Shown piece after piece: positions 14,643 through 36,370 of a stretch of 36,370 nt of DNA; position 1 is the stretch's first letter, and each line of letters begins with the position of its first letter. Source of the stretch: Gemmatimonadota bacterium (lineage in GTDB: Bacteria; Gemmatimonadota; Gemmatimonadetes; Longimicrobiales; Gaopeijiaceae); the NCBI GenBank assembly GCA_009841165.1, contig VXMI01000010.1:1-36370 (forward strand). The letters run 5' to 3'. Below the pieces are notes generated by a model that ran no database searches, was not told the DNA's origin, and saw only the letters and a list, made by a program, of their open reading frames with translations. Both the position numbers and the translations under genes were made by a program.

Positions 14643-15635
14643 CTAGTTGGCTCGCGTCTGCCTTGAGACCTTGTCCAGCAGATCCCGCTCTTCGGCGGTC
14701 AGCGAATTGATTCCCTGGGCCGAAATCTTGTCCAGCACCGCATCGACCCGGTCGAGTTCGGCGCTCTCCCTGGCGGCGCGCTTCGCCGCTCTTCGTCCCT
14801 CGAAGGCCTCGATAACCCGCGTGGCCGGAGACTCGCCCCTAGCCGCGGGGGCATCGGGACGGCTCTTGCGACCTCTGCGGCCGGGACCACTCGTGTAGGC
14901 CTTCGGGCCGCGGCCCGACCGACCGCGACGCCCCAGCGCGCTGCGCCACGGCGTTCGCCTCCGTCCGCGGCCGCCGGCGCCCGGACCCGGTCCCCTGGCG
15001 TCGCTCCTACCCGATCCGGGGAGCCACCCGCTCTGTACGAGGAGGAAACCGGCGACGGCACCGCCCAGGTGCGCGAGGTGCGCCACGCCGTCCCGCGCCG
15101 GTCCGATCGCGCTCGCAAAGCTCAGCAAGACGAGGAAGATGACCAGCCACTTCACCCTCACGGGCACCAGACCCCAGATATAGACCGGCGTATTCGGCCA
15201 GATCATCGCAAAGGAAAGCATGATCCCGTAGCAGGCAGCCGAGGCTCCAACGATCGAGGCGCCCGAAAAGACGAAGCTGAGCAGTACGCCCCCGAGTCCG
15301 CAGACGAGGTAGAACTTGATGAAGAGGTCCGAACCCCAGCGGGCTTCCAGAGGCGGTCCGAAGAAGAAGATGAAGAGGAGATTGATGAGCAGGTGCCAGA
15401 GTCCCTGGTGCACGAACATGTAGGTGAGCATGCCCCAGGGCCTGGTCGCCAGGCGGCTCGGCGAAAAGGCGAAGAGGTCGGCGATGACTTCGAAGCCCAC
15501 GCCGACCGAGACCAGGAACACGACCGCATTGGCGATCAGCAGCCTCTTGACCCAGGGCGTAACGGTGAAGCCGCCGGGGCCTCCGCCGAACCCGGCCGAA
15601 CCGAATCCCGTTGAACCGGGCCTTCCGAATCTCAC
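14643..15635 (-). CDS. Rhomboid family intramembrane serine protease
   Basis: The protein has 330 residues. The catalytic serine is in VGASAACYGIM (G-x-S motif), and the catalytic histidine in VAHLAHLGGAVAGFLL. Other family marks are FVHQGLWHLLINLLFIFFFG and a short glycine-rich N-terminus before the first helix. About six membrane helices are visible. The cytoplasmic tail has an Arg/Gly/Pro-rich stretch and ends with a conserved small domain, DKISAQGINSLTAEERDLLD, which I recognise from Bacteroidota-type rhomboids (probably the domain called DUF6576). GTG 15635 is chosen: it overlaps the ddl stop as GTGA and has AGGAG 7 bases upstream. ATG 15653 would add six residues but has a weaker site. 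The substrate is unknown. Confidence 0.92.
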   Translation of the reverse strand: MRFGRPGSTGFGSAGFGGGPGGFTVTPWVKRLLIANAVVFLVSVGVGFEVIADLFAFSPSRLATRPWGMLTYMFVHQGLWHLLINLLFIFFFGPPLEARWGSDLFIKFYLVCGLGGVLLSFVFSGASIVGASAACYGIMLSFAMIWPNTPVYIWGLVPVRVKWLVIFLVLLSFASAIGPARDGVAHLAHLGGAVAGFLLVQSGWLPGSGRSDARGPGPGAGGRGRRRTPWRSALGRRGRSGRGPKAYTSGPGRRGRKSRPDAPAARGESPATRVIEAFEGRRAAKRAARESAELDRVDAVLDKISAQGINSLTAEERDLLDKVSRQTRAN

Positions 15636-16687
15636 GCCACCGCTCCTGTCCATTCCGGCCGCCTCGCTCCGGCCTCGAGGCCCAATCTACAAATACGTTC
15701 GCAGAGCTCGGGAAATTCAATTCCCGCCGCCCTGGCCGCCTTCGGCAGCAGGCTGTTGGACGTCAATCCCGGCAGTGCGTTGGCTTCGAGGCACCAGGCA
15801 CGACCGCGCTCGTCCACGATGAAGTCCACGCGGGAAAAGTGCCGCAGCCCGAGGACACGGTGCACCCGCAGCGCGCTGGACTGCAACCGGCGTGCGAGTT
15901 CGCGCGGGATTCGTGCCGGCGCGGTCTCGATCGCCATCCCCTGTTCGTACTTGCAGTCGAAGTCGAAGAGTTCGCGTACGGGCTCGATCTCGACCACCGG
16001 CAGTGCCTCGCCATCCAGAATCCCCACCGTGAACTCGCGACCGCTCAGGTACTGTTCGTACATGACGCTGTCGCCTCCCCCTCCCGCGATTGCGGTCGCC
16101 TCATCCACCTCGGCAATCGAGCCCGCCAGCACCAGGCGGACCGAGGACCCGCCCGACACGGGCTTGACGATGACGGGGAGCCCCAACCGCTCCGCCACTG
16201 CCTCTCCCGGTGCGGGTTCTGCAAGCCAGTCGGCGGTTGCGATCAGCGCGTCCCTCAGCAGGCGTTTCGTGATGTCCTTGTTCATGGCGAGGGCGCAACC
16301 GACCGGCCCGCTCCCCGCGTAGGCAATTCCGGACACCTCGAGCAGCGTCTGGATCGTGCCGTCCTCTCCGGCGCCGCCGTGGAGCGCCAGAAAGACCACG
16401 TCCGAATCGGCGAGCGCCGGCTCGCGCGCGATCACCGCCGCGTCGGGGAGCACATGCGGGTTCCGGGGCGCGGGGACCGGGATCTCGGCGCGCCCGATGC
16501 CCGAAGCGCGGATGAGCTGCTCCCGGTCGGGGGAGAGCGGTCCCACCGCCGAATCGATGCTGACCACCCGGTGGCCGATCGAGCGCAGCGCCGCGGCCAC
16601 CTCGCAACCGCTCGCAAGTGCCACGCCGCGCTCCTCGGAACTCCCCCCGAGCAGAACGGCCACGCGCAAGGGTGTTCGCCGGCTCAT
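15632..16687 (-). CDS. ddl: D-alanine--D-alanine ligase
   Basis: The protein has 351 residues and an ATP-grasp fold; it joins two D-alanines for peptidoglycan. It shows VAVLLGGSSEERGVAL at the N-terminus, HGGAGEDGTIQ at 103-113, MNKDITKRLL, PVIVKPVSGGSSV with the ATP-binding Lys175, EQYLSGREFTVGIL, and the metal/phosphate segment SRVDFIVDERG followed by CLEANALPGLT. The last motif has Ala where most Ddl proteins have Thr (N-T-x-P-G), a small deviation. ATG 16687 overlaps the upstream synthase stop as ATGA, and the 3' end overlaps the rhomboid gene. The rest of the ligase cell-wall cluster is not nearby. Confidence 0.92.
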   Translation of the reverse strand: MSRRTPLRVAVLLGGSSEERGVALASGCEVAAALRSIGHRVVSIDSAVGPLSPDREQLIRASGIGRAEIPVPAPRNPHVLPDAAVIAREPALADSDVVFLALHGGAGEDGTIQTLLEVSGIAYAGSGPVGCALAMNKDITKRLLRDALIATADWLAEPAPGEAVAERLGLPVIVKPVSGGSSVRLVLAGSIAEVDEATAIAGGGGDSVMYEQYLSGREFTVGILDGEALPVVEIEPVRELFDFDCKYEQGMAIETAPARIPRELARRLQSSALRVHRVLGLRHFSRVDFIVDERGRAWCLEANALPGLTSNSLLPKAARAAGIEFPELCERICRLGLEAGARRPEWTGAVA

Positions 16688-18132
16688 GACGAAGCCGCCA
16701 GGGACCGGACCAGGTCGTAGCGGGTCAGGATGCCGTCCAGGCGGGTGTCGGACCGGATCAGCACGGCCTCCGCTCCCCCCGTCAGGAGCCGCACCGCCGT
16801 GTCGCCGTCCGCACCCTCGTCCAGAACCGGGTAGGGTTCTCCCATGACGCACTCGACCTCCGCGTCCAGAAGGGACCGATCCGACAGGATCGCCGCCATC
16901 AGCCGCCGTTCCGAAATGCTGCCCACGCACTCCCCGTCGACCACCACCGGGAGCTGGGAGATGTTGTGGGAGGAAAGCGTCGAAACGGCCATGCGCACCG
17001 GCATCGCCGGAGCGGCGGTGAGGAGCCGGGGGAGCCGCTCGAACTTGGCGGCGGCCATCTGGGCCACCGTCGGCCGCTGACGCTGGAGGAAGCCGTTGTT
17101 CCGCATCCACTCGTCGTCGTACTGCTTGGTCAGATAGCGCTCGCCCCAATCGCACAGGATGGCCACCAGGCAGGCGTCCGGATCGTCGAGCCGGCGGGCT
17201 TCCGCAAGCGCGGCGTGGACGATGAGGCCGGTGGATCCCCCCACGAACAGCCCTTCCTCCGCCACCAGACGACGCGCCATGCGGAATGCGTCGCCGTCGT
17301 CCACGGTGACGTAGTGGTCCACGTACTCCAGATCCAGCGTGCCCGGTATCCTGTCGTTGCCGAGCCCCTCGACCTTGTACGGCCGGCCCTCGTCGACCTC
17401 TCCCGTCTCGTAGAAGCCCGAGATCACCGATCCCGCGGGATCCACCCCGATGACGCGCACCGAGGGATTTCGCTCCTTCAGATACCTCCCGGTCCCCGAA
17501 ATCGTCCCTCCGGTGCCGGCACCCGCCACGAAGTGGGTGACTCTGCCACCGGTCTGCTCCCAGATTTCCGGGCCGGTCGTGCGGTAGTGGGCGTCGGGGT
17601 TGTCCCGGTTCTCGAACTGATTGGCGAGAAACGCGCCGGGCAGGTCCCCGGCGATGGCGCGGGCGCGATTGATGTAGTGATCGGGGTGGTCGGGAGCGAC
17701 CGCGGTGGGTGTGATGACCACCTCGGCCCCGAAGGCTCGCAGCAGCTTCACCTTCTCGATGCTCATCTTGTCCGGCATCGTGAAGATGCAGCGGTATCCG
17801 CGAATCGCCGCCGCCATGGCAAGAGCCAGCCCGGTGTTGCCGCTCGTGCCCTCGACCACCGTCCCCCCGGGTCCGAGCAACCCGCGCGATTCCGCCGCCT
17901 TGATGATGGCCACGCCGATTCGATCCTTCACGGACCCGCCCGGGTTCATGAACTCGGCCTTCCCGTAGACGGGTGTCCGAATCCCCCGTGTCACACGGGT
18001 GAGGCGTACGAGGGGCGTCCATCCCACCAGGTCCAGCACGCTCCCGTAGGGCTCCCGGTGCCACCCGTGTCCGTGCGCCGAAGCGCCGACCCGCCGGCTC
18101 CGGTCCTCCGCGCGATCAGCCACCCGATTCAC
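16684..18132 (-). CDS. Cystathionine beta-synthase with C-terminal CBS domains
   Basis: The protein has 482 residues. The N-terminal fold-type II PLP domain (about 25-340) has the PLP lysine Lys69 in NPGGSVKDRIG, the substrate loop EGTSGNTG at 94-101, and the phosphate loop GAGTGGTISG. A CBS pair follows (about 345-480), seen as TLSSHNISQLPVVVDGECVG and GILTRYDLVRSL. Sequence runs such as DKMSIEKVKLLRAFGAEVV and HYRTTGPEIWEQTGG are closer to cystathionine beta-synthase than to plain O-acetylserine sulfhydrylase. It would condense serine or an O-acylserine with homocysteine or sulfide; the exact reaction is not certain. There is no haem-binding N-terminal domain of the vertebrate type. GTG 18132 has AAGGA 5 bases upstream and overlaps the TonB-C gene by 17 bases; GTG 18123 is an alternative. 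Confidence 0.9.
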   Translation of the reverse strand: MNRVADRAEDRSRRVGASAHGHGWHREPYGSVLDLVGWTPLVRLTRVTRGIRTPVYGKAEFMNPGGSVKDRIGVAIIKAAESRGLLGPGGTVVEGTSGNTGLALAMAAAIRGYRCIFTMPDKMSIEKVKLLRAFGAEVVITPTAVAPDHPDHYINRARAIAGDLPGAFLANQFENRDNPDAHYRTTGPEIWEQTGGRVTHFVAGAGTGGTISGTGRYLKERNPSVRVIGVDPAGSVISGFYETGEVDEGRPYKVEGLGNDRIPGTLDLEYVDHYVTVDDGDAFRMARRLVAEEGLFVGGSTGLIVHAALAEARRLDDPDACLVAILCDWGERYLTKQYDDEWMRNNGFLQRQRPTVAQMAAAKFERLPRLLTAAPAMPVRMAVSTLSSHNISQLPVVVDGECVGSISERRLMAAILSDRSLLDAEVECVMGEPYPVLDEGADGDTAVRLLTGGAEAVLIRSDTRLDGILTRYDLVRSLAASS

Positions 18133-26690: not shown

Positions 26691-28049
26691 TCAGTCTTGG
26701 AGGTCGTGAATCGTCACCGGACCGATCTTCAGATCCTCGAGCCCGGGGGCGACGGCGTCGGCGTCGCCAACCACGACGGTACACAGTTCACGCGGCCGGA
26801 TGTGACGCCGGGCGGCTGCCATGGCCTGCTCCCGCGTGACCTCCCTGATTCTGTCCCGGTAGTCACGATAGTAGTCCACCGGAAGGCCGAAGACGATCAA
26901 TCCCGCGATCCGGGAGGCAACCTGCCCCGTGGACTCCATCCGCAACGGAAACACGCCCGCCAGGTAGCTCGTCGCGGTCTGGACCTCGTCCGCCGTTGGA
27001 CCCGACTCCGAGAGCGCTTCGACCTCCCTGAAGATCTCCCGCACCGCCGCTGCAGTCACCGAGTTCTCGACTGCGGTCGAAACCACGAAGGGACCGCGGT
27101 TCCGGCGGGCCGCAAACGTGGAGCGGACCCCGTAGGTGAAGCCGTGATGCTCACGAAGGTTGAGGTTGAGGCGCGACGAGAAGGAGCCTCCGAGCACGAG
27201 GTTCACCACTGTCAGAGGGAGGTAGTCCTCGATGAAACGCGAAACGCCGACATGCCCGACCCGAATCTCGGACTGCACGGAACCGGGCCGATGCACCACA
27301 TGGATCGAGCGTCCGGGCTCACGCCCGGCAACGACCGCCTCGGGCGGGTTGGCCGACTGTTCGCCCCAGTCCCCGAATTCCCGGTCGGCAAGTTGCCGCA
27401 CTTCTTCACTCTCCACATCTCCGACCACGACCACTGCAGCCCGTGCGGGCCCGTAGCGAGCCGCGGCGTACTGACGGGCGTGGTCGGCCTCAAGGGCTCC
27501 TAGAGAAGCCTCCGTGCCACCCAGGGGGCGCGCGTAGGTATCTCCGTCACCATAAATGCTGCGCGCGTGGCAATCGGCGGCAAGCGAAGCGGGGTCCATG
27601 CGGCGGTGTGCCGCCGTCGCCAGACGCTGAGCCTTGTAGCGGTCGAACTCCGCCTGGTCGAACGCCGGCGACCGCACCATTTCGGCGAGCAGCGGCAGGG
27701 CATCGACCAGGTTGTCCGCAAGACATGAAACGGCGACAGTGGTGGAATCCCATCCGGTCGCGGCACCAAAACTCGCTCCGATGTCCTCGAGCCGGCATGC
27801 GAGTTCGACGCTCGACAGGCGCGTGGTCCCTCCTTCGAGGGCATCTCCGGCGAGCACCGCCAGACCTTCGCGACCGGCCGGGGCCGCGGTTTCCCCCGCG
27901 CGCAACACAACCATGGCGGTGACGAGGCCGAGGGGCTGTTTCTGCACGACCCGCACACGCATTCCGTTCCCAAGTCGCTCGTCGGCCACGGGAGGGAACT
28001 CGTAGGGGCGAATCGGTCCCGGGGGAGGAGGTTTGCCGCGGTCGGTCAC
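26691..28049 (-). CDS. M16 peptidase homologue without the zinc motif
   Basis: The protein has 452 residues and two M16 (pitrilysin/MPP-like) half domains. Where an active enzyme has HxxEH, this one reads GLAVLAGDALEGGT, so no zinc ligands remain. The C-terminal half keeps NLVLGGSFSSRLNLNLREHH and GFTYGVRSTFAARR, the glycine loop and the Arg/Tyr region that in M16B proteins binds substrate. With the upstream active homologue it would form the alpha part of an alpha/beta heterodimer, as in mitochondrial processing peptidase. GTG 28049 overlaps the active subunit's stop as GTGA, which suits equal expression. It has no signal peptide and is probably cytoplasmic. Confidence 0.9.
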   Translation of the reverse strand: MTDRGKPPPPGPIRPYEFPPVADERLGNGMRVRVVQKQPLGLVTAMVVLRAGETAAPAGREGLAVLAGDALEGGTTRLSSVELACRLEDIGASFGAATGWDSTTVAVSCLADNLVDALPLLAEMVRSPAFDQAEFDRYKAQRLATAAHRRMDPASLAADCHARSIYGDGDTYARPLGGTEASLGALEADHARQYAAARYGPARAAVVVVGDVESEEVRQLADREFGDWGEQSANPPEAVVAGREPGRSIHVVHRPGSVQSEIRVGHVGVSRFIEDYLPLTVVNLVLGGSFSSRLNLNLREHHGFTYGVRSTFAARRNRGPFVVSTAVENSVTAAAVREIFREVEALSESGPTADEVQTATSYLAGVFPLRMESTGQVASRIAGLIVFGLPVDYYRDYRDRIREVTREQAMAAARRHIRPRELCTVVVGDADAVAPGLEDLKIGPVTIHDLQD

Positions 28050-29308
28050 GAGGATCGTTCCGGGATGTAGCGGACGAGTGCCCGATTCCCGGGATTCAGA
28101 TGGTTCCGGCTCCAGCTGCGCACTTCATCGAGAGTGACCTGGCGCAGACGCCCTAGATCGTCGTTGAGACGCGCGGCGTCGCCGAAGTGGGTGGCATACA
28201 TCGAGAGCAGGTCAGCTCGCGTCGCGACCTGCTGCAACGCCCTCAGCATTCGTGTTTCCGCTCCCGTGACAGCCCGTTCCACCGCTTCTTCGGTCAGTGT
28301 GACCGCGTTGTCGAGTTCCTGTGTGACAGCGGTCTCGAGGTCGTTCACGTCGGTGTCCGGGAAGCCGGTTGCGATGACCATGAAGAGGCTCGCGCCCGAC
28401 GTGAGCGGCAGGAGATGACACGAGGCCGACTTTGCCAGTCGACGCCGCACGAGGCGGTCGTAAAGGCGCGAGGTCCTGCCGGTGCCGAGGCAGTGGGCCA
28501 CGACATCCCCGGGATAGAAGAGGTCGGTTGTGAAGGGAGGAACCCGCGCCGCGGCGTAGACCCTGGGCAGGGGCACGGCCCCGGGTACATCTTCTCGCAG
28601 TGTAGCTCCGGTCGAGAAGGGAATCTGATCGATCCCGGGAATCGGCGGGGGATCCGGCCCGGGCTGGATGGCGCCGAAGTAGTGCTCGACGCGGTCGCGC
28701 GCGCGGTCCGGGTCGAAGTCGCCGCAGATCGAGAGTACCGCGTTGTTGGGAAGGTAGTAGGTCGAAAAGAAGTCGCGGACATCGTCCAGCGTGGCGGCCG
28801 CTATGTCCTCGAGGGTTCCGATCACGCTGTGGTGGTATGGGTGGGTCTCCGGAAACAGGAGAGCCTGGATGCGCTCGTCCCAGTCGCCGTAGGGCTGGTT
28901 GTCGTAGCGCTCCTTTCGCTCGTTCATGACGACCTGGCGCTGGTTCTCCAGCTTTTCGCCGTTCATCGCGGGGAGCATCCATCCCATTCGGTCCGATTCC
29001 AGCCACAACGCCAGATCGAGGTGGTGCGAAGGCACCGTCTCGAAGTAGTTGGTGCGGTCGAACCAGGTGGTCGCGTTTGCCGATCCACCCACCTCCTCGA
29101 TGAGCTGAAAGTGTCCGTTCCTGGGCACGTGGGCGGAGCCCTGGAACATCATGTGCTCGAACAGATGGGCAAAACCGGTACGGCCGGGCGCTTCATTACG
29201 CGAACCGACCCCGTACCACAGGTTGACGCTCGTGACCGGCGTCGTCAGGTCCGGTGCCATCACCAGCCTGAGCCCGTTGCCCAGCGTGTGCTCTTCGACT
29301 TCGATCAT
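28046..29308 (-). CDS. M16 family zinc metallopeptidase, active subunit
   Basis: The protein has 420 residues. The inverted zinc motif is intact: His48-Leu-Phe-Glu51-His52 in GFAHLFEHMMFQGS, with a third ligand near Glu130 in VVMNERKERYDN. It begins EEHTLGNGLRLVMAPD, the usual start of processing-peptidase-like M16B proteins, and has no signal peptide. It should cut peptides together with the inactive homologue next to it. ATG 29308 is chosen; the open frame continues upstream but without family similarity. A weak promoter (TTGTGG, 17 bases, TAGGCT; 29404-29376) is possible in the gap to the divergent aminotransferase. Confidence 0.92.
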   Translation of the reverse strand: MIEVEEHTLGNGLRLVMAPDLTTPVTSVNLWYGVGSRNEAPGRTGFAHLFEHMMFQGSAHVPRNGHFQLIEEVGGSANATTWFDRTNYFETVPSHHLDLALWLESDRMGWMLPAMNGEKLENQRQVVMNERKERYDNQPYGDWDERIQALLFPETHPYHHSVIGTLEDIAAATLDDVRDFFSTYYLPNNAVLSICGDFDPDRARDRVEHYFGAIQPGPDPPPIPGIDQIPFSTGATLREDVPGAVPLPRVYAAARVPPFTTDLFYPGDVVAHCLGTGRTSRLYDRLVRRRLAKSASCHLLPLTSGASLFMVIATGFPDTDVNDLETAVTQELDNAVTLTEEAVERAVTGAETRMLRALQQVATRADLLSMYATHFGDAARLNDDLGRLRQVTLDEVRSWSRNHLNPGNRALVRYIPERSS

Positions 29309-29434
29309 TCCTCGCACGCCCCCACGCCCCCATATTCCGTTCGGCACCCGCTGCCGGGTGTTCCGGTGACTCTTGAGCCTATCCGCTGGCGACAGCGTCC
29401 ACAACCAACCGAAAACCAGCCAGGAGCCGGCATC

Positions 29435-30619
29435 GTGGGATTCATCCCGTTTCAGATGGAACGATGGCAGTCCACCTACGAGCACAGGGTGGACTACAAC
29501 CTCTCCGAGAGCGGCGTCCATCCGCTGACGGTCGGCGAACTGCTGTCATACGCGGGAGGAGCGGTGGATCTTTCGGACGTCGGGCTGGGCTACAGCCAGT
29601 CCAACGGTACGGACGAGTTGCGAGCGCTGATCGCGTCCCTGCATCCCGGCGCAACGGACAGGTCCGTCGTAGTCACCATCGGAGGGGCCGAAGCCAACTT
29701 CGTGGCGTTCTGGGAACTGGCCCGGCCCGGCAGGTCGGCGGCCGTGATGCTCCCCAACTACATGCAGGTTCCGGGCCTGATCAGGAACTTCAGCGGGGGA
29801 GCGATTCCGTTCCACCTCCGGGAGGAGGCCGGTTGGCGACCGGATCTGGACCAGCTCGAATCGGCTCTTCGGGCGGGTGCGGGGTTCATTCTGGTGACGC
29901 ACCCCAACAATCCCACGGGGGTAGCCCTCACGTCGAACGAAATGGACGACATCGTGTCATTGGCTGACGCGCATGGAGCGTGGATTCTCTCCGATGAAGT
30001 GTACAGGGGAGCCGAGGTGGGTGCTGAACCCGTCCCAACCTTCTGGGGGCGTTATGACCGCGTCCTGGTCACGAATTCGCTGTCGAAGGCCTACGGGCTC
30101 CCCGGTGTGAGGCTCGGCTGGGTGCTGGGGCCCGAAGATGTGGTGGAGCGCCTGTGGGCCCGCACCGACTACACCACGATCGCGCCACCGTCGGTCTCCG
30201 ACGCTCTCGCCAGAATCGCCCTGTCCCCCGCCGTGCGGCCGAAGATCCTGGAGCGCACGCGCGCGATCATCCGGCGCAACCTGGATCACCTTGCCAGGTG
30301 GGTGGCGTGCCACGACGGTCTGTTCAGCTTCACCCCCCCGGACGCCGGTGCCATCTCGATGGTCCGCTACGATGCGGACATCGGTTCGCTGGAACTCGCC
30401 GAACGACTTCGGGTTGAACGCAGCCTGCTCATCGTGCCCGGCGCTCACTTCGGGATCGAATCCACGATGCGCCTGGGGTTTGGCCCTCCCGAGGACGAGC
30501 TCCAGCACGCGCTCGACCGCCTCGGCGACGCGTTCGAATCGTTGCGGAACCGGGCGTTCGGCCCGGACGCCGTGCGCGCTCCCCTACCCACCGGTGCCTC
30601 CGGTCAGAGTTCGAGCTGA
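29435..30619 (+). CDS. PLP-dependent aminotransferase, class I/II fold
   Basis: The protein has 394 residues and begins MGFIPFQMERWQSTYEHRVD. The PLP lysine is Lys218 in TNSLSKAYGLPGVRLGW; Asn158/159 in THPNNPTG, Asp187 and Tyr190 in SDEVYRG, and a late Arg in TMRLGFG complete a fold-type I site. The start region (YNLSESGVHPLTVGELL) resembles a subgroup that includes capreomycidine-synthase-like aminotransferases, so the substrate could be an arginine-like or other amino acid. This is a weak inference. GTG 29435 has AGGAG 8 bases upstream, which decides the start. The gene is alone on this strand and overlaps the SRAP gene tail to tail by 16 bases. Confidence 0.88.
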   Translation: MGFIPFQMERWQSTYEHRVDYNLSESGVHPLTVGELLSYAGGAVDLSDVGLGYSQSNGTDELRALIASLHPGATDRSVVVTIGGAEANFVAFWELARPGRSAAVMLPNYMQVPGLIRNFSGGAIPFHLREEAGWRPDLDQLESALRAGAGFILVTHPNNPTGVALTSNEMDDIVSLADAHGAWILSDEVYRGAEVGAEPVPTFWGRYDRVLVTNSLSKAYGLPGVRLGWVLGPEDVVERLWARTDYTTIAPPSVSDALARIALSPAVRPKILERTRAIIRRNLDHLARWVACHDGLFSFTPPDAGAISMVRYDADIGSLELAERLRVERSLLIVPGAHFGIESTMRLGFGPPEDELQHALDRLGDAFESLRNRAFGPDAVRAPLPTGASGQSSS

Positions 30620-31311
30620 ATCCCCAGGCCCGGCTCCCCGGGTTCCACCCTCTCTATGCACGCCGGCTCGTCCCATCCCGCGCGATTGACCGCGCGCGAC
30701 ACCGGGTGGAGTTGCAGGTCGGGCTGTTCGGCACCTTCCAGCACCGCGTTCAGCACGGGGGTGGTGGTGCCGCGCGCAAGCCAGTCGTCCCAGACGGTTT
30801 CCTCGAGGATGACCGGAACCCGGTCGTGCAGCCAGCGGATCGACGAAGGAGCCGACCGCGTGAGAATCGCGAACGTAGCGATCCGCGCGCCGTCAGGGGC
30901 AGGCCAGACCGACCAGATCCCCGCCATGGCGAAAAGCGACCCGCCGGGACGATGGATCCACCAGGGCTGTTTTCCGGACGGTAGTGACTCCCACTCGTAG
31001 AACCCGCTGGCGGGGACCAGGCAACGCCTCGCCCGGAACGATTCGCTGAAGGCGCTGCGAGTGGTCACCGTTTCCGCGCGGGCGTTGATCATTCGGGTCC
31101 CGGCCCGGGGATCACTGGCCCAGTGTGGCAACAGACCCCAACGCATGGGCCCGGCTCGCCGACCGCCCCGGGCCGCGACCACCACGGGAGGCTCTTCGGT
31201 CGGAGCGATGTTGTAGCGCGGGAGGTGGGTCAGGCGGATGGGCGTAACATCCGCAGCGAATGCGTCCGCGATCGCGTCTGCGTCTTCGTGAAGCGTGAAG
31301 CGGCCGCACAT
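30604..31311 (-). CDS. SRAP/YedK (HMCES) abasic-site protein
   Basis: The protein has 235 residues. The catalytic residues of SRAP proteins are present: Cys2 (MCGRF, exposed after Met removal), Asn76 in MINARAET, Glu106 in ASGFYEWE, and His162 in WLHDRVPVIL. YedK and HMCES form a thiazolidine crosslink with abasic sites in single-stranded DNA and protect them. It lies 12 bases after the acylase-like gene and is probably the third gene of that operon. No lexA or other SOS gene is near. Its last 16 bases overlap the convergent aminotransferase gene. Confidence 0.93.
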   Translation of the reverse strand: MCGRFTLHEDADAIADAFAADVTPIRLTHLPRYNIAPTEEPPVVVAARGGRRAGPMRWGLLPHWASDPRAGTRMINARAETVTTRSAFSESFRARRCLVPASGFYEWESLPSGKQPWWIHRPGGSLFAMAGIWSVWPAPDGARIATFAILTRSAPSSIRWLHDRVPVILEETVWDDWLARGTTTPVLNAVLEGAEQPDLQLHPVSRAVNRAGWDEPACIERVEPGEPGLGIQLEL

Positions 31312-31323
31312 CGGCTGGGCGGT

Positions 31324-32406
31324 TCAGTTCGCCGTCAGCAGGCCATCAGCACCGTGGGCACGACGGCGACGCTCTGCGGCCTCGCGGACCACAAAGAAGC
31401 CGTCTTCGCCGAGTTCCTGATAGAGAGGCATCAGGAGCCTTCCCGATAGGGGTGCGGCCACTTCGCCGCGCCGGTCGTCGCCCACGATCTGTCCCGCCCT
31501 GATCAGCTGGAAGTTGCCAAAACCTGGCCGGGTCCGGTATCCGTCTGCCGATGCAACCGGATGGCGGTGTACGGTTTCGAAGACCTTCGGGAGGTGGTCT
31601 CGCGCAGCACGCATGATCCGAAAGCTCCGCCGCGCCTCCGGGATCGCCGTCTCCGGCAGAAGTCCTGCCGCCCGCGCAGCCAGCCATACCGCGGCCCGGG
31701 CCCTCGTTACCGCCCGGGGCTCCTGGTGCTGACCGCACTCGCAAACTGTGGTGGTATAGGCAAGCTGGTCGAGATAGCCGAGGAGAGTGCCTTCGAGGTG
31801 CTCGTCGAGACCGAGCACGAGTGGGACGGGGATCTCCATCGCAAACCGGCGGTTGCGCGGTAGATCCGCAGTCGTGGTGAAGGTCCCGCCGCGCCCCGAG
31901 GTCGTGTGAAGGTCGAGTACGTGCACCGGACCACGGCGGCGCTCGGCAATCACGTCGAGCAGGTGCAGCAGTCTGACCATTTCAAGGTCCTCCGGCGAAG
32001 GCGCGGAAACCCGCCTCCCGCGGAGGGGGTGGACACCGCGCCGGGACGGCGACGAGTCCACGGCGGCACGCCTGTGCCCGCCCGGCGGTGCATGCCCGTT
32101 CCTCGACAGATCGATCCGGCCTGCCGTCCATGCACGGTTCATGTCATAGGACAGGAAGCGCCGACCGGCAGCCAGGGCACCGGTATTCCCGACGACGGCC
32201 ACGAAGTCCCCCTTCATTGCGCGGCGGCGTGCCCGGACCTGGTCGATCAGAGCCTCCAATGCCCGGACTCCGGCCGGCTCATTCCCGTGAAGGCCCCCTA
32301 TGCACAACAGGAGGGGGCCCTCCGATGCCCCCTCGACCCACCCGATCAGACCGCTATCGGGATGGGAGGCCGGCTCTCGTGGGAGTGATTGTGCGCTGGA
32401 CCCCAC
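31324..32406 (-). CDS. Succinylglutamate desuccinylase/aspartoacylase-like zinc hydrolase
   Basis: The protein has 360 residues. The zinc ligands of the M14-like aspartoacylase fold are His40 and Glu43 in GGLHGNEPAG and His167 in LDLHTTSG; the catalytic Glu223 is in VCECGQH. The substrate-binding DMNRAW is also present. Between about residues 102 and 130 there is a low-complexity insert rich in Arg, Gly, Pro and His. The enzyme should remove an acyl group or a terminal amino acid from an amino-acid conjugate; the substrate is unknown. GTG 32406 is 2 bases after the ligase-CBS stop, so the two are almost certainly co-translated. This pairing suggests they act on the same compound. Confidence 0.85.
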   Translation of the reverse strand: MGSSAQSLPREPASHPDSGLIGWVEGASEGPLLLCIGGLHGNEPAGVRALEALIDQVRARRRAMKGDFVAVVGNTGALAAGRRFLSYDMNRAWTAGRIDLSRNGHAPPGGHRRAAVDSSPSRRGVHPLRGRRVSAPSPEDLEMVRLLHLLDVIAERRRGPVHVLDLHTTSGRGGTFTTTADLPRNRRFAMEIPVPLVLGLDEHLEGTLLGYLDQLAYTTTVCECGQHQEPRAVTRARAAVWLAARAAGLLPETAIPEARRSFRIMRAARDHLPKVFETVHRHPVASADGYRTRPGFGNFQLIRAGQIVGDDRRGEVAAPLSGRLLMPLYQELGEDGFFVVREAAERRRRAHGADGLLTAN

Positions 32407-32408
32407 TC

Positions 32409-34322
32409 TCAGGTTCCCTGCAGGCGCTCTTCGAGCAGATGATAGGCCATGGGCATGAAATCCGTCTCGCTCACAAGACCGATCAGCTGTTCGTCCTTGA
32501 CCACGGGCAGCGCCGATACCCTCTTCTCGCGCATGATTCGAATCGCGTCCATGGTGGTCGTCTCGGGGGCGATGGTGACGGGATCCCGCACCATGACATC
32601 GCTGACGGGCATCGCCTCCGCTTCGGCAGGTGTCCGGCCTTCGGCCATCAACCGCAGGATGGAACGGTAGGACACCACACCGACGAGGCGATGCTCACTG
32701 TCCTCGATGAGCACGTGCCGGATCCCGCGAAAGTCCATCAGGTACGCGACCAGCTCCACCAGCTCATCCTGGTTCACCGTGGTCAGCGCGGTGGTCATGT
32801 ACTGCTCCACGCGCATGTAGTGGTGCTTCCATCCGCCCGCGTCGTGGATCTGCGCCGCTTCCCATTGCGCGACGGGGGTCCCTTCAACCTGCTGCCGAAC
32901 GGTGGCCGCCGTGATGGCCGCCAGGCGCTCTCCCCGGGTTCCGGACTTCTTGAGCTTGCTGAGCGAGCGCAGCGCCCAGGACGCGCCGGTGACCCCGGCC
33001 CCGACACGCTCCTCGATCACCGATAGGTAGCGGGCCACTTCGTCCCCGTCGATCGGATACCCGGAAAGCCCTTCCTCGGCCAGCGGGAGCAGCGTCTCCA
33101 GCACCAGCCGGTCGGACGGGCCGCTTTCCCCGTCCAGCCAGGCCAATCCTGAGCGAAGGCCGAGTCGGGATGCGGCGAGGAAGTTGCTCTTGGCGTCGTC
33201 GAAATCCATGCGCTCGGTAAGATCCGGGTATTTCCGGGCGACACCCAGAACGGCACCGATCCAGAACACCGCGTTTGCCATCTCGTCGAGGGTGGTGGGG
33301 CCGGCCGGGAGAACCCTGCACTCGATGCGCAGATGCGGTTTCCCCTTCGAGATGCCGTAGCATGGCCGGTTCCAGCGGTAGACCGTCCCGTTGAACAGCT
33401 GCAACGCCTTCAGTTTCGGCACGCCTCCTTCGTCGAGCACGGCGAGCGGGTCCTCGTCGACCGGAGTGGCCAGCAGGACATGAAAAGCCGCGACGTCTTC
33501 CTGAAAGAGCTCCACGGCGGAGCGCTCCAGCCAGTGCCCGCCGAATCGCACGCGCGAACTCATTTCCCGCAGGTGGAGATCAGCCCCCCGGGTGTCCAGC
33601 GACTGCTGGAAGAGGGCTATGCGGGTTTCCGCCCACAGTCGCCGGCCGAAAAGGAGAGGGGAGTTCACGCACGCGGCAAGCACAGGCCCGGTAACGGCTT
33701 GCGCAACGTTGTAGAAGTGGGCGAACTCCTCCGCCGATACCTGGAGGTGGACCTGGAAACTGGTGTTGCACGCCTCGAGCATGACCGAATCGTGCTGGAT
33801 CATCAGTTCATCGGTGCCCCGGATCCGGAGCCGGAAGGCACCGCCGCCCGCCTGGTTCATCGCTTCGTTGAGGGCGTAGTAGCGCGCCCGCGGCGTGATG
33901 TTGTCGAGTGACAGGTCCGACTTGGCCAGCGTAGGGAGGATTCCGGTCAGCATGACCTCCGAGCCATGCCGACGGGCCGCTGCCCGGACACGATCGACGT
34001 ACCCGTCGAGTTCCGCATGCATGTCCGAGAAGCATGACCCTTCCAGTACGCGCGGCGACAGGTTGGCCTCGAGGTTGAATCGTGCCAGCTCCGTCGTGAA
34101 CGGTTCGTCGTTCAGGTCCTCGAGAACCTCGACCGCGACCGGTGCCGGCCTCCAGGCTTCGTTGACCAGGAACATCTCCTGCTCGGCACCGAAGCGACGG
34201 ATTCCCGACTCGATGTGGCCTTCGGCCAGCAACCGCTCCATGGCCAGCATGTCACGAAGGAGCGCACGGGTGAATACCCGGATCGCTTCGGGAGAAGTCT
34301 GCGGAGCGAGATCTACGCCCAT
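32409..34322 (-). CDS. Glutamate-cysteine-ligase-like enzyme fused to a CBS-domain pair
   Basis: The protein has 637 residues. The N-terminal part (about 1-430) resembles the GCS2 family of carboxylate-amine ligases: FGAEQEMFLVNEAWRPAP, FNLEANLSPRV, GILPTLAKSDLSLDNITP, CNTSFQVHLQVSAEEFAHFY, and SKGKPHLRIECRVLPAGPTT. A helical linker follows. The C-terminus has two CBS motifs: about 505-565 (MTTALTTVNQDELVELVAYL, VGVVSYRSILRLM) and about 570-630 (MVRDPVTIAPETTTMDAIRI, LIGLVSETDF). CBS pairs normally bind adenine nucleotides or SAM and regulate activity. The ligase substrates are not certain; gamma-glutamylcysteine is only one option. ATG 34322 has a GGAG site, and a 6-base hairpin sits just upstream. 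Confidence 0.85.
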   Translation of the reverse strand: MGVDLAPQTSPEAIRVFTRALLRDMLAMERLLAEGHIESGIRRFGAEQEMFLVNEAWRPAPVAVEVLEDLNDEPFTTELARFNLEANLSPRVLEGSCFSDMHAELDGYVDRVRAAARRHGSEVMLTGILPTLAKSDLSLDNITPRARYYALNEAMNQAGGGAFRLRIRGTDELMIQHDSVMLEACNTSFQVHLQVSAEEFAHFYNVAQAVTGPVLAACVNSPLLFGRRLWAETRIALFQQSLDTRGADLHLREMSSRVRFGGHWLERSAVELFQEDVAAFHVLLATPVDEDPLAVLDEGGVPKLKALQLFNGTVYRWNRPCYGISKGKPHLRIECRVLPAGPTTLDEMANAVFWIGAVLGVARKYPDLTERMDFDDAKSNFLAASRLGLRSGLAWLDGESGPSDRLVLETLLPLAEEGLSGYPIDGDEVARYLSVIEERVGAGVTGASWALRSLSKLKKSGTRGERLAAITAATVRQQVEGTPVAQWEAAQIHDAGGWKHHYMRVEQYMTTALTTVNQDELVELVAYLMDFRGIRHVLIEDSEHRLVGVVSYRSILRLMAEGRTPAEAEAMPVSDVMVRDPVTIAPETTTMDAIRIMREKRVSALPVVKDEQLIGLVSETDFMPMAYHLLEERLQGT

Positions 34323-34432: not shown

Positions 34433-35101
34433 TTACAAGAAGGTGGCGATTTCCCCGAGAGACTTCTTGGTGATTGCAGGTACCTGTGCGTCGCTGGCCG
34501 GGTAGCCCACTACCAGGATCAGGTAGGGGCGCTCGTTCGGAGGTCGATCGAGGATCTCGTTCAGGAAGTTCATCGGCGAAGGCGTGTGCGTGAGCGTGGC
34601 CAGGCCCGCGCGGTGGAGTCCGGTAATCAGCATCCCCGTCGCGATGCCGACACTCTCCTGGACGTAGTAGTTCTTCACCTTGCGGTTGTCGGGAAGAAGC
34701 TGGTAGCGCTCCGCGAAGATCACCACGAGGCAGGGGGCCGTCTCGAGAAACGGCTTGTGCTCGTCGGTTCCCAGAGCCGCGAGTGCGTCCAGCCACTCCC
34801 GGGGAGCGCCGCCGCCGTAGAATGCGCGTTCCTCTTCCTCGGCGGCGACCCGGATACGCGACTTGATCTCCGGGTCGGACACGACCACGAAGTGCCATGG
34901 CTGGTGGTTTGCACCGTTGGGTGCGGTGCCGGCCGCCCGAATGCACTCTTCGATTACTTCGAGAGGAACCTGCCGGCTGCTGAAATCGCGAACGGTCCGA
35001 CGGCGAGCCAAATCCCGGCGGAATTCCCGCGCCCGCTGCAACATCTCCGGTCGGGAACGCTGGACAAACGAACCCAGCGGGATGAAGCGGGGCCCATTCA
35101 A
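34433..35101 (-). CDS. Nitroreductase family protein, iodotyrosine deiodinase-like
   Basis: The protein has 222 residues, with an FMN-binding nitroreductase fold. [78 protein letters not shown] and [14 protein letters not shown] are very close to the bacterial homologues of iodotyrosine deiodinase (IYD), which use FMN for reductive removal of halogen from tyrosines. The bacterial role is not established. The start is TTG 35101, giving an N-terminus with [20 protein letters not shown] that fits the subgroup; there is no good ribosome site. A short stem (CGTTC/GAACG) lies after the gene. Confidence 0.88.
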
Positions 35102-35791: not shown

Positions 35792-36370
35792 TCATGTCCG
35801 GCCCAGCTCCCTCGCCGCGACCCTGTGAGCAGCCACGGCCGGAGAGATCGAGAGCGCATCCGCCTCCCGGAAGATCTCGTCCAGCGACCTGGCGATGCGC
35901 CGGCGCACTTCTTTCGTCACCTCTGCCGAGTCGCGAGTCCCGCGTTCCATCAATCCGAACGCCATGGCTCCTCCCCCGTTTATGACGTAGTCCGGCGCGT
36001 ACAGGATGCCTCGCTCAACCAGAAGGTCGGCATCCGCGGGGCGCTCAAGCTGGTTGTTGGCCGATCCCGCCACGATTCTGCAGCGCAACTCCGGAATGGT
36101 CCTGCGGCTCACCGTGGCGCCGACGGCACACGGGGCATAGACGTCGCACTCCGCGTCGTAGACATGCCGGGGATCGACGACGGTCCCTCCGCACTCACCC
36201 GCCACCGCTCGCGCGCGGTCCGCATCCACGTCCGACACGAGAACCCCGGCCCCCGATCGAGCCAGCAGCAGCGCCAGGGGCCCCCCCCCCGGGCCCCACC
36301 CCCGGTCGCGCGGGGGCGGATTCACGAAGCGCGCGGGCGCGCAGAGGTGGCGGGTGTCGGAGGGAGGGTG
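35792..36370 (-). CDS. Glu/Leu/Phe/Val dehydrogenase, C-terminal part (5' end outside window)
   Basis: About 170 residues of the NAD-binding domain are visible. The Rossmann loop reads GWGPGGGPLALLLARSGAG, followed by LVSDVDADRARAVAGECGG, then YDAECDVYAPCAVGATVS, RCRIVAGSANNQLERPADAD and GILYAPDYVINGGGAMAFG. These match leucine/glutamate-type amino-acid dehydrogenases, with leucine dehydrogenase the nearest in feel. It oxidatively deaminates an amino acid with NAD(P). The N-terminal catalytic domain is missing. The frame stays open to the window edge, but similarity stops near 36300, in a run of ten C and other homopolymers that looks like poor sequence. GTG 36325 is not a convincing start. 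Confidence 0.85.
   Translation of the reverse strand, partial: HPPSDTRHLCAPARFVNPPPRDRGWGPGGGPLALLLARSGAGVLVSDVDADRARAVAGECGGTVVDPRHVYDAECDVYAPCAVGATVSRRTIPELRCRIVAGSANNQLERPADADLLVERGILYAPDYVINGGGAMAFGLMERGTRDSAEVTKEVRRRIARSLDEIFREADALSISPAVAAHRVAARELGRT
36277..36370. other. Low-complexity edge of the window, probable sequence-quality loss
   Basis: The last 94 bases contain GGGG followed by ten C (36281-36290), then repeated GGG/CCC/GCGC blocks and AGGGAGGG. The dehydrogenase reading frame stays open through it, but the protein no longer resembles the family (PPPRDRG replaces the usual beta-strand before the Gly-rich loop). This is what a degraded contig end looks like. Confidence 0.55.

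Follow-up and report, generated by a model that had tools for sequence, protein, structure and literature searches.

Why would a bacterium keep a gene for an enzyme predicted to form an amide bond directly next to a gene for an enzyme predicted to cleave one? This question is raised by two genes on the minus strand of contig VXMI01000010.1 (assembly GCA_009841165.1) from a Gemmatimonadota bacterium of the Gaopeijiaceae, of which a stretch of 36,370 nucleotides, hereafter termed the window, was analysed. The upstream gene (32409..34322) has an ATG start and encodes a GCS2-type carboxylate-amine ligase of 637 amino acids (aa) with a C-terminal CBS pair, as indicated by the open reading frame (ORF) call, Pfam matches, an alignment of orthologues and a fold match. 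The downstream gene (31324..32406), called with a GTG start, encodes an AstE/AspA-type zinc amidohydrolase of 360 aa, termed here the acylase, which was assigned by ORF call, Pfam, catalytic residues and fold match. The two genes are conserved as an ordered pair in two phyla, and we consider it reasonably probable that their products form a single module for one amide bond, in which they have opposing or successive roles.

Conservation of the ligase-acylase pair

The two phyla scanned in depth were represented by 298 Gemmatimonadota and 218 Bacteroidota genomes, and full-length relatives of both proteins were detected in dozens of genomes. In Gemmatimonadota, the CBS-bearing ligase and the acylase were each found in 68 genomes, 54 of which contain both, compared with 15.5 expected if the genes were distributed independently. 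In Bacteroidota, the CBS-ligase was found in 58 genomes and the acylase in 39; 38 genomes encode both enzymes, against 10.4 expected. Moreover, the adjacency that had been noted in the first-pass annotation of the window, together with the suggestion to score co-occurrence elsewhere, and whose absence from other genomes would have spoken against the proposal, proved to be conserved: in 51 Gemmatimonadota genomes the acylase gene immediately follows the ligase gene in the same orientation, and 32 Bacteroidota acylases are located directly downstream of a CBS-ligase.

The pair is flanked by a nitroreductase and a SRAP gene in the family of the window, and by genes for PriA, ScpB and an RluB-like pseudouridine synthase in one Bacteroidota lineage. 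As the flanking genes vary by lineage, only the ligase and the acylase are common to both phyla. In the five Saprospiraceae found with the ligase, the acylase is located elsewhere in the same genome; thus, co-occurrence outlives adjacency.

Replacement of the hydrolase beside a conserved ligase

The Bacteroidota lineage with the gene order PriA - ligase - acylase - ScpB includes the loci L134, L139 and L140. The ligases of L140 and L134 are 86.5% identical and the acylases in the same slot 33.1%; the corresponding values for L139 and L134 are 77.7% and 35.3%. In the acylase tree, the proteins of L139 and L140 fall in a different acylase subclade. The simplest account of these sequences is that a distant homologue has taken over the slot in situ; this would imply selection for an acylase at this position. 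Over 31 pairs, the ligase and acylase distances are correlated with r 0.52, with 0.72 within Gemmatimonadota and 0.40 within Bacteroidota, the lower value being that of the phylum in which the apparent replacement occurred.

Relatives of the ligase that lack the CBS pair likewise adjoin hydrolases. In a Bacteroidota-phylum clade of CBS-less ligases outside the CBS clade, the ligase gene of all 13 genomes is immediately followed by a very divergent AstE-like gene, whose match begins no more than about 20-40 bases past the end of the ligase match. The copy tested scores 34.5 bits (Pfam cut-off 25), and the copies read contain the HGNE (zinc) and DLH motifs. In the Gemmatimonadota family f5, a Peptidase C26 gene is located upstream of the CBS-less ligase on the same strand in six of eight genomes; in one of the two others the ligase is near a contig end. 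The best NCBIfam model for this Peptidase_C26 protein is the gamma-glutamyl-GABA hydrolase PuuD, with a score below the cut-off. Since two unrelated hydrolase folds are thus found beside one ligase family, the bond that both would cut offers the best clue to the chemistry, and this bond is plausibly a gamma-glutamyl amide. Among plasmid records, just CBS-less relatives from Actinomycetota and haloarchaea were retrieved, and these had no obvious hydrolase neighbour.

Acylases accompany CBS-bearing ligases in preference to CBS-less ones (Fisher 6e-11). We did not use this value as evidence, because the CBS-bearing proteins form one clade and many CBS-less ligases have hydrolases of their own, which are either below the search threshold or of another family. 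Taken together, the refilling of the slot and the other hydrolases beside CBS-less ligases strongly favour, on comparative grounds, a predicted ligase that would work with an amide hydrolase.

Active sites and folds of the two enzymes

The ligase scores 34.2 bits with the GCS2 model PF04107 (cut-off 21; E 2e-8), the match spanning residues 45-267 within a catalytic region of residues 1-490 (32853..34322; Pfam and alignment). The GhExE signature is present at residues 45-49 as G45-A-E47-Q-E49. Iyer, Burroughs and Aravind describe this signature as belonging to the GCS2 Mg/ATP site and as common to PafA (PMC2588565). In an alignment of 109 ligases, conservation is 97% or higher at G45, E47, E49, E78, N83, E85, Q190, H192, R332, E334 and R336, a core that includes the motifs Q190-x-H192 and R332-x-E334-x-R336. 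The predicted model (pLDDT 74, with residues 223-283 below 50) matches the folds of YbdK (1r8g, E 1e-9) and of plant glutamate-cysteine ligase (2gwc). The first-pass annotation had regarded a loss of ATP- or metal-binding residues as damaging to its proposal; this conserved core and the YbdK and plant ligase fold speak for their retention.

At the sequence level, the ligase did not match any solved structure convincingly, and fold comparison alone succeeded; when YbdK alone was compared with the ligase profile by HHalign, the GhExE segment was the sole part aligned. The scores with the NCBIfam models for YbdK and GshA are likewise far below the cut-offs (TIGR02050, 17.2 bits vs 176.4; PRK13517, 17.8 vs 409). 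The ligase represents a divergent branch within the glutamine-synthetase fold, and ATP-dependent amide ligase activity is predicted for it. It resembles YbdK, EgtA and plant-type glutamate-cysteine ligase in the Pfam match over cut-off, the GhExE signature and the fold; it differs from them in these low model scores, in a catalytic part of about 490 residues, in the C-terminal CBS pair and in having an acylase as operon partner.

The acylase reaches 49.3 bits with AstE_AspA_cat (PF24827, cut-off 25). Its catalytic domain, delimited by Pfam and alignment (residues 30-227; 31726..32319), contains H40, E43, R83, N90, R91, H167 and E223, and the set H40/E43/H167, R83, D88-x-N90-R91 and E223 is invariant in a 13-row alignment. 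By analogy with aspartoacylase, we take H40, E43 and H167 to bind zinc, R83, N90 and R91 to bind the substrate, and E223 to be the catalytic glutamate. The predicted model has a pLDDT of 82, with values below 50 at residues 109-130 within an Arg/Ser-rich insert (about residues 98-137; 31996..32115; alignment and predicted model) that is reduced or missing in relatives. Its best fold matches are AstE (1yw6), EutE/DoeB (6twm) and CphZ (8eip). These data agree with the M14-like zinc acylase bearing a full catalytic set that had been read from the window at first pass.

The acylase thus resembles AstE, aspartoacylase, EutE (DoeB) and CphZ in the family match, the catalytic set and the fold. It differs in that it remains under all AstE and aspartoacylase equivalog cut-offs of NCBIfam (37.6 vs 305.65 and 35.3 vs 180, respectively), is encoded outside arginine or ectoine operons and is coupled to a ligase. 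Both proteins seem to represent subfamilies not yet characterised within known superfamilies.

The CBS pair as a putative control point

The C-terminus of the ligase contains two CBS stretches in tandem (PF00571, 83.8 bits, E 1e-23), delimited by Pfam and alignment: CBS1 at about residues 505-560 (32643..32810; limits approximate) and CBS2 at residues 573-623 (32454..32606). In the fold comparison, this part of the model matches CBS pairs, including nucleotide-bound AcuB. The ribose-binding-type motif of CBS2, S618-E-T-D621, is well kept, with S/T in 85 of 86 and D/N in 84 of 86 copies. In the ligase tree, the CBS-bearing proteins form one clade with a support of 99. Simultaneous activity of a ligase and an acylase expressed from one operon would consume ATP to no benefit; the CBS pair is therefore the probable control point and is probably an adenine-nucleotide gate on synthesis by the ligase.

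As a separate observation, some Bacteroidota encode two tandem CBS-ligases upstream of one acylase (L137:8013-11883, L138:8686-12556, L150:7663-11511). The tandem copies are about 45-48% identical to each other, and the downstream copy of L137 has no GCS2 Pfam match, yet the motifs are kept.

Genes surrounding the pair

In the window, the ORF calls place the ligase, the acylase and the SRAP gene on the minus strand with spacings of 2 and 12 bases, respectively. The GTG start of the acylase is uncertain, because in most relatives the alignment does not begin until about residue 14-20; the exact gap of 2 bases is tied to the chosen start and is uncertain as well. The ORF calls and Pfam matches bear out the arrangement described in the first-pass annotation, i.e., a ligase-CBS fusion followed by the acylase and then by SRAP.

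In the neighbour tables, the SRAP gene (30604..31311; PF02586, E 1e-69) was found next to the pair solely in the family of the window. The nitroreductase-family gene upstream of the ligase (34433..35101, minus strand; Pfam/NCBIfam) has BluB/FbiB-like scores, every one under the cut-off; in the same tables it precedes the ligase in most members of this family, and none was seen farther out. Being neighbours in this family only, both genes were ruled out as members of the unit and are placed outside its core.

Other neighbours of the two enzymes were recorded elsewhere. In Saprospiraceae-like genomes with separated acylases, a small acidic protein (153-165 aa) is encoded next after the acylase in seven of seven loci (L116:7657-8118, L117:1362-1841, L118:7283-7753, L119:5278-5745, L120:986-1447, L145:6623-7096, L146:7240-7737); the copies tested had no Pfam match. 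In the Gemmatimonadota genus g74, the acylase (L092:7383-8621, L093:7336-8574) is separated by 6 bases from a downstream gene whose product, about 1070 aa long, contains leucine-rich repeats as well as a metallopeptidase-like stretch. In the Gemmatimonadota family f7, a GT4 glycosyltransferase gene is located directly upstream of the ligase (L097:9121-10125, L099:9633-10991, L105:6282-7343). A link to bacillithiol via the GT4 genes beside ligases was ruled out, the scores with the BshA model being 79 and 91 bits (cut-off 273.7).

Elsewhere in the window, two adjoining M16 (insulinase-type) peptidase genes are found at 26691-29521 on the minus strand. A partial Glu/Leu/Phe/Val-type dehydrogenase gene near the window end (35792-36325) has a sub-cut-off resemblance to the model of the tryptophan dehydrogenase ScyB. 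In the open frame at 15632-18064, a D-Ala-D-Ala ligase domain starts only at residue 467; the long N-terminal part is without a family match and may be an artefact of open frames in high-G+C DNA.

Proposed cycle and alternative explanations

We infer that both enzymes would act on the same bond. The ligase would use ATP to convert a carboxylate, most probably that at the gamma position of glutamate, into an acyl phosphate, which would be attacked by the amine of a second compound to yield an amide conjugate. The AstE/AspA-type zinc enzyme would cleave this amide, either directly or after modification of the partner, and glutamate would be returned. The CBS pair would gate synthesis by adenine nucleotide and thereby prevent an ATP-wasting cycle. 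Going further, we tentatively suggest a nucleotide-gated metabolite cycle, not previously described and shared by two or more phyla: a gamma-glutamyl-type conjugate outside known pathways would be made by a GCS2-CBS ligase and removed by a dedicated hydrolase, AstE-like or, in a sister lineage, of the C26 type. In our literature searches, neither the CBS fusion nor the ligase-acylase pair was found described; these searches did not cover the 2009 amidoligase survey, so that priority is not established.

Several observations weigh against this assignment. The pair is not obligatory: among the genomes with the CBS-ligase, a same-family acylase was not detected in 14 of the 68 from Gemmatimonadota and in 20 of the 58 from Bacteroidota, i.e., in 34 of 126 or about a quarter; a few of these ligases are located at contig ends. 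Conversely, an acylase with no accompanying ligase is found in the genus g74. The counted genomes are related, and p-values hence overstate independence. Moreover, the confidence of the ligase model is moderate, and the CBS1 motif S551-Y-R-S554 has no acidic residue, the S/T-x-x-D/N pattern being absent there. A merely historical operon, in which ligase and acylase have unrelated substrates, would account for the genomes without an acylase; however, the gene order is conserved over two phyla despite different neighbours, the slot was apparently refilled by a distant homologue, and CBS-less ligases are paired in parallel with other amide hydrolases. We therefore give this explanation little credence.

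Alternatively, the glutamyl moiety could serve as a protecting group: the ligase would tag an amine, another enzyme encoded at a different place, perhaps nitroreductase-like in the window's family, would alter it, and the acylase would free the product and glutamate. PuuA and PuuD provide such a route for putrescine by gamma-glutamylation and deglutamylation, and the C26 hydrolase beside CBS-less ligases and the conserved nitroreductase-family neighbour in the window's family would fit it. Nevertheless, no third gene is common to the Gemmatimonadota and Bacteroidota neighbourhoods examined, and no nitroreductase was seen to adjoin the pair beyond family f1, which renders this variant unlikely. 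Because no third shared gene was found, we lean towards a conjugate that would represent a stored-and-released pool. The ligase is the sole GCS2 protein found in the window's genome, and some archaea use gamma-glutamylcysteine itself as a thiol, which could point to a gamma-glutamyl-cysteine ligase of these bacteria with the acylase as a recycling peptidase. This is rather improbable, given the distance of the ligase from the YbdK and GshA models, the lack of a glutathione synthetase match (PF02955) in the window's genome, as opposed to 10 of 14 control genomes, and a best EgtB score of 39.4 bits (cut-off 360). The glutathione and ergothioneine routes look incomplete in this genome, and membership in them was rejected. 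We regard it as most improbable that the ligase tags a protein or peptide side chain and the acylase detags it in a PafA/Dop- or RimK/RimB-like manner. Ligase-hydrolase pairs that act on proteins do exist, but no conserved small protein was seen beside the pair in the neighbour tables, and the fold of the acylase best matches small-molecule acylases. The derivation of PafA from GCS2 ligases proposed in PMC2588565 would be in line with such a modification.

The proposed module resembles known two-enzyme systems. In cyanophycin turnover, an AstE/AspA-type enzyme, the dipeptide hydrolase, cuts an isopeptide that an ATP-dependent ligase has formed (PMC10206079). As predicted for the window, cyanophycin synthetase and the beta-Asp-Arg dipeptide hydrolase CphZ thus combine an ATP-dependent ligase with an isopeptide hydrolase of the AstE/AspA family that acts on one amide. 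In contrast to the ligase described here, CphA is not a GCS2 ligase, makes a polymer and is not known to contain CBS domains. PuuA and PuuD likewise comprise a glutamine-synthetase-fold ligase and a gamma-glutamyl hydrolase, and a PuuD-like C26 protein (sub-cut-off) adjoins the CBS-less relatives; however, PuuA is a glutamine synthetase homologue, and the window's hydrolase is a zinc acylase unrelated to PuuD. Iyer, Burroughs and Aravind describe GCS2-sized ligases adjoining a thiol peptidase or gamma-glutamyl cyclotransferase (PMC2588565); that ligase family differs, and neither a CBS fusion nor an aspartoacylase partner was found there in the section consulted or by a term search.

Taken together, the two genes for which a make-and-break role was proposed at first pass are a conserved ordered pair in two phyla with intact active sites and exchanged hydrolases, albeit without SRAP as a member. 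The pair suggests a pathway for a small molecule that is as yet uncharacterised, and its ligase is encoded in roughly one quarter to one third of the Gemmatimonadota and Bacteroidota genomes sampled. The exchange of hydrolase partners hints at a chemistry, the gamma-glutamyl amide, beyond what the window alone provides, and with two genes and both active sites readable the system is defined tightly enough for work with purified proteins. Moreover, the CBS pair would represent a case of energy-state gating that is placed directly on an enzyme of the glutamate-cysteine-ligase type.

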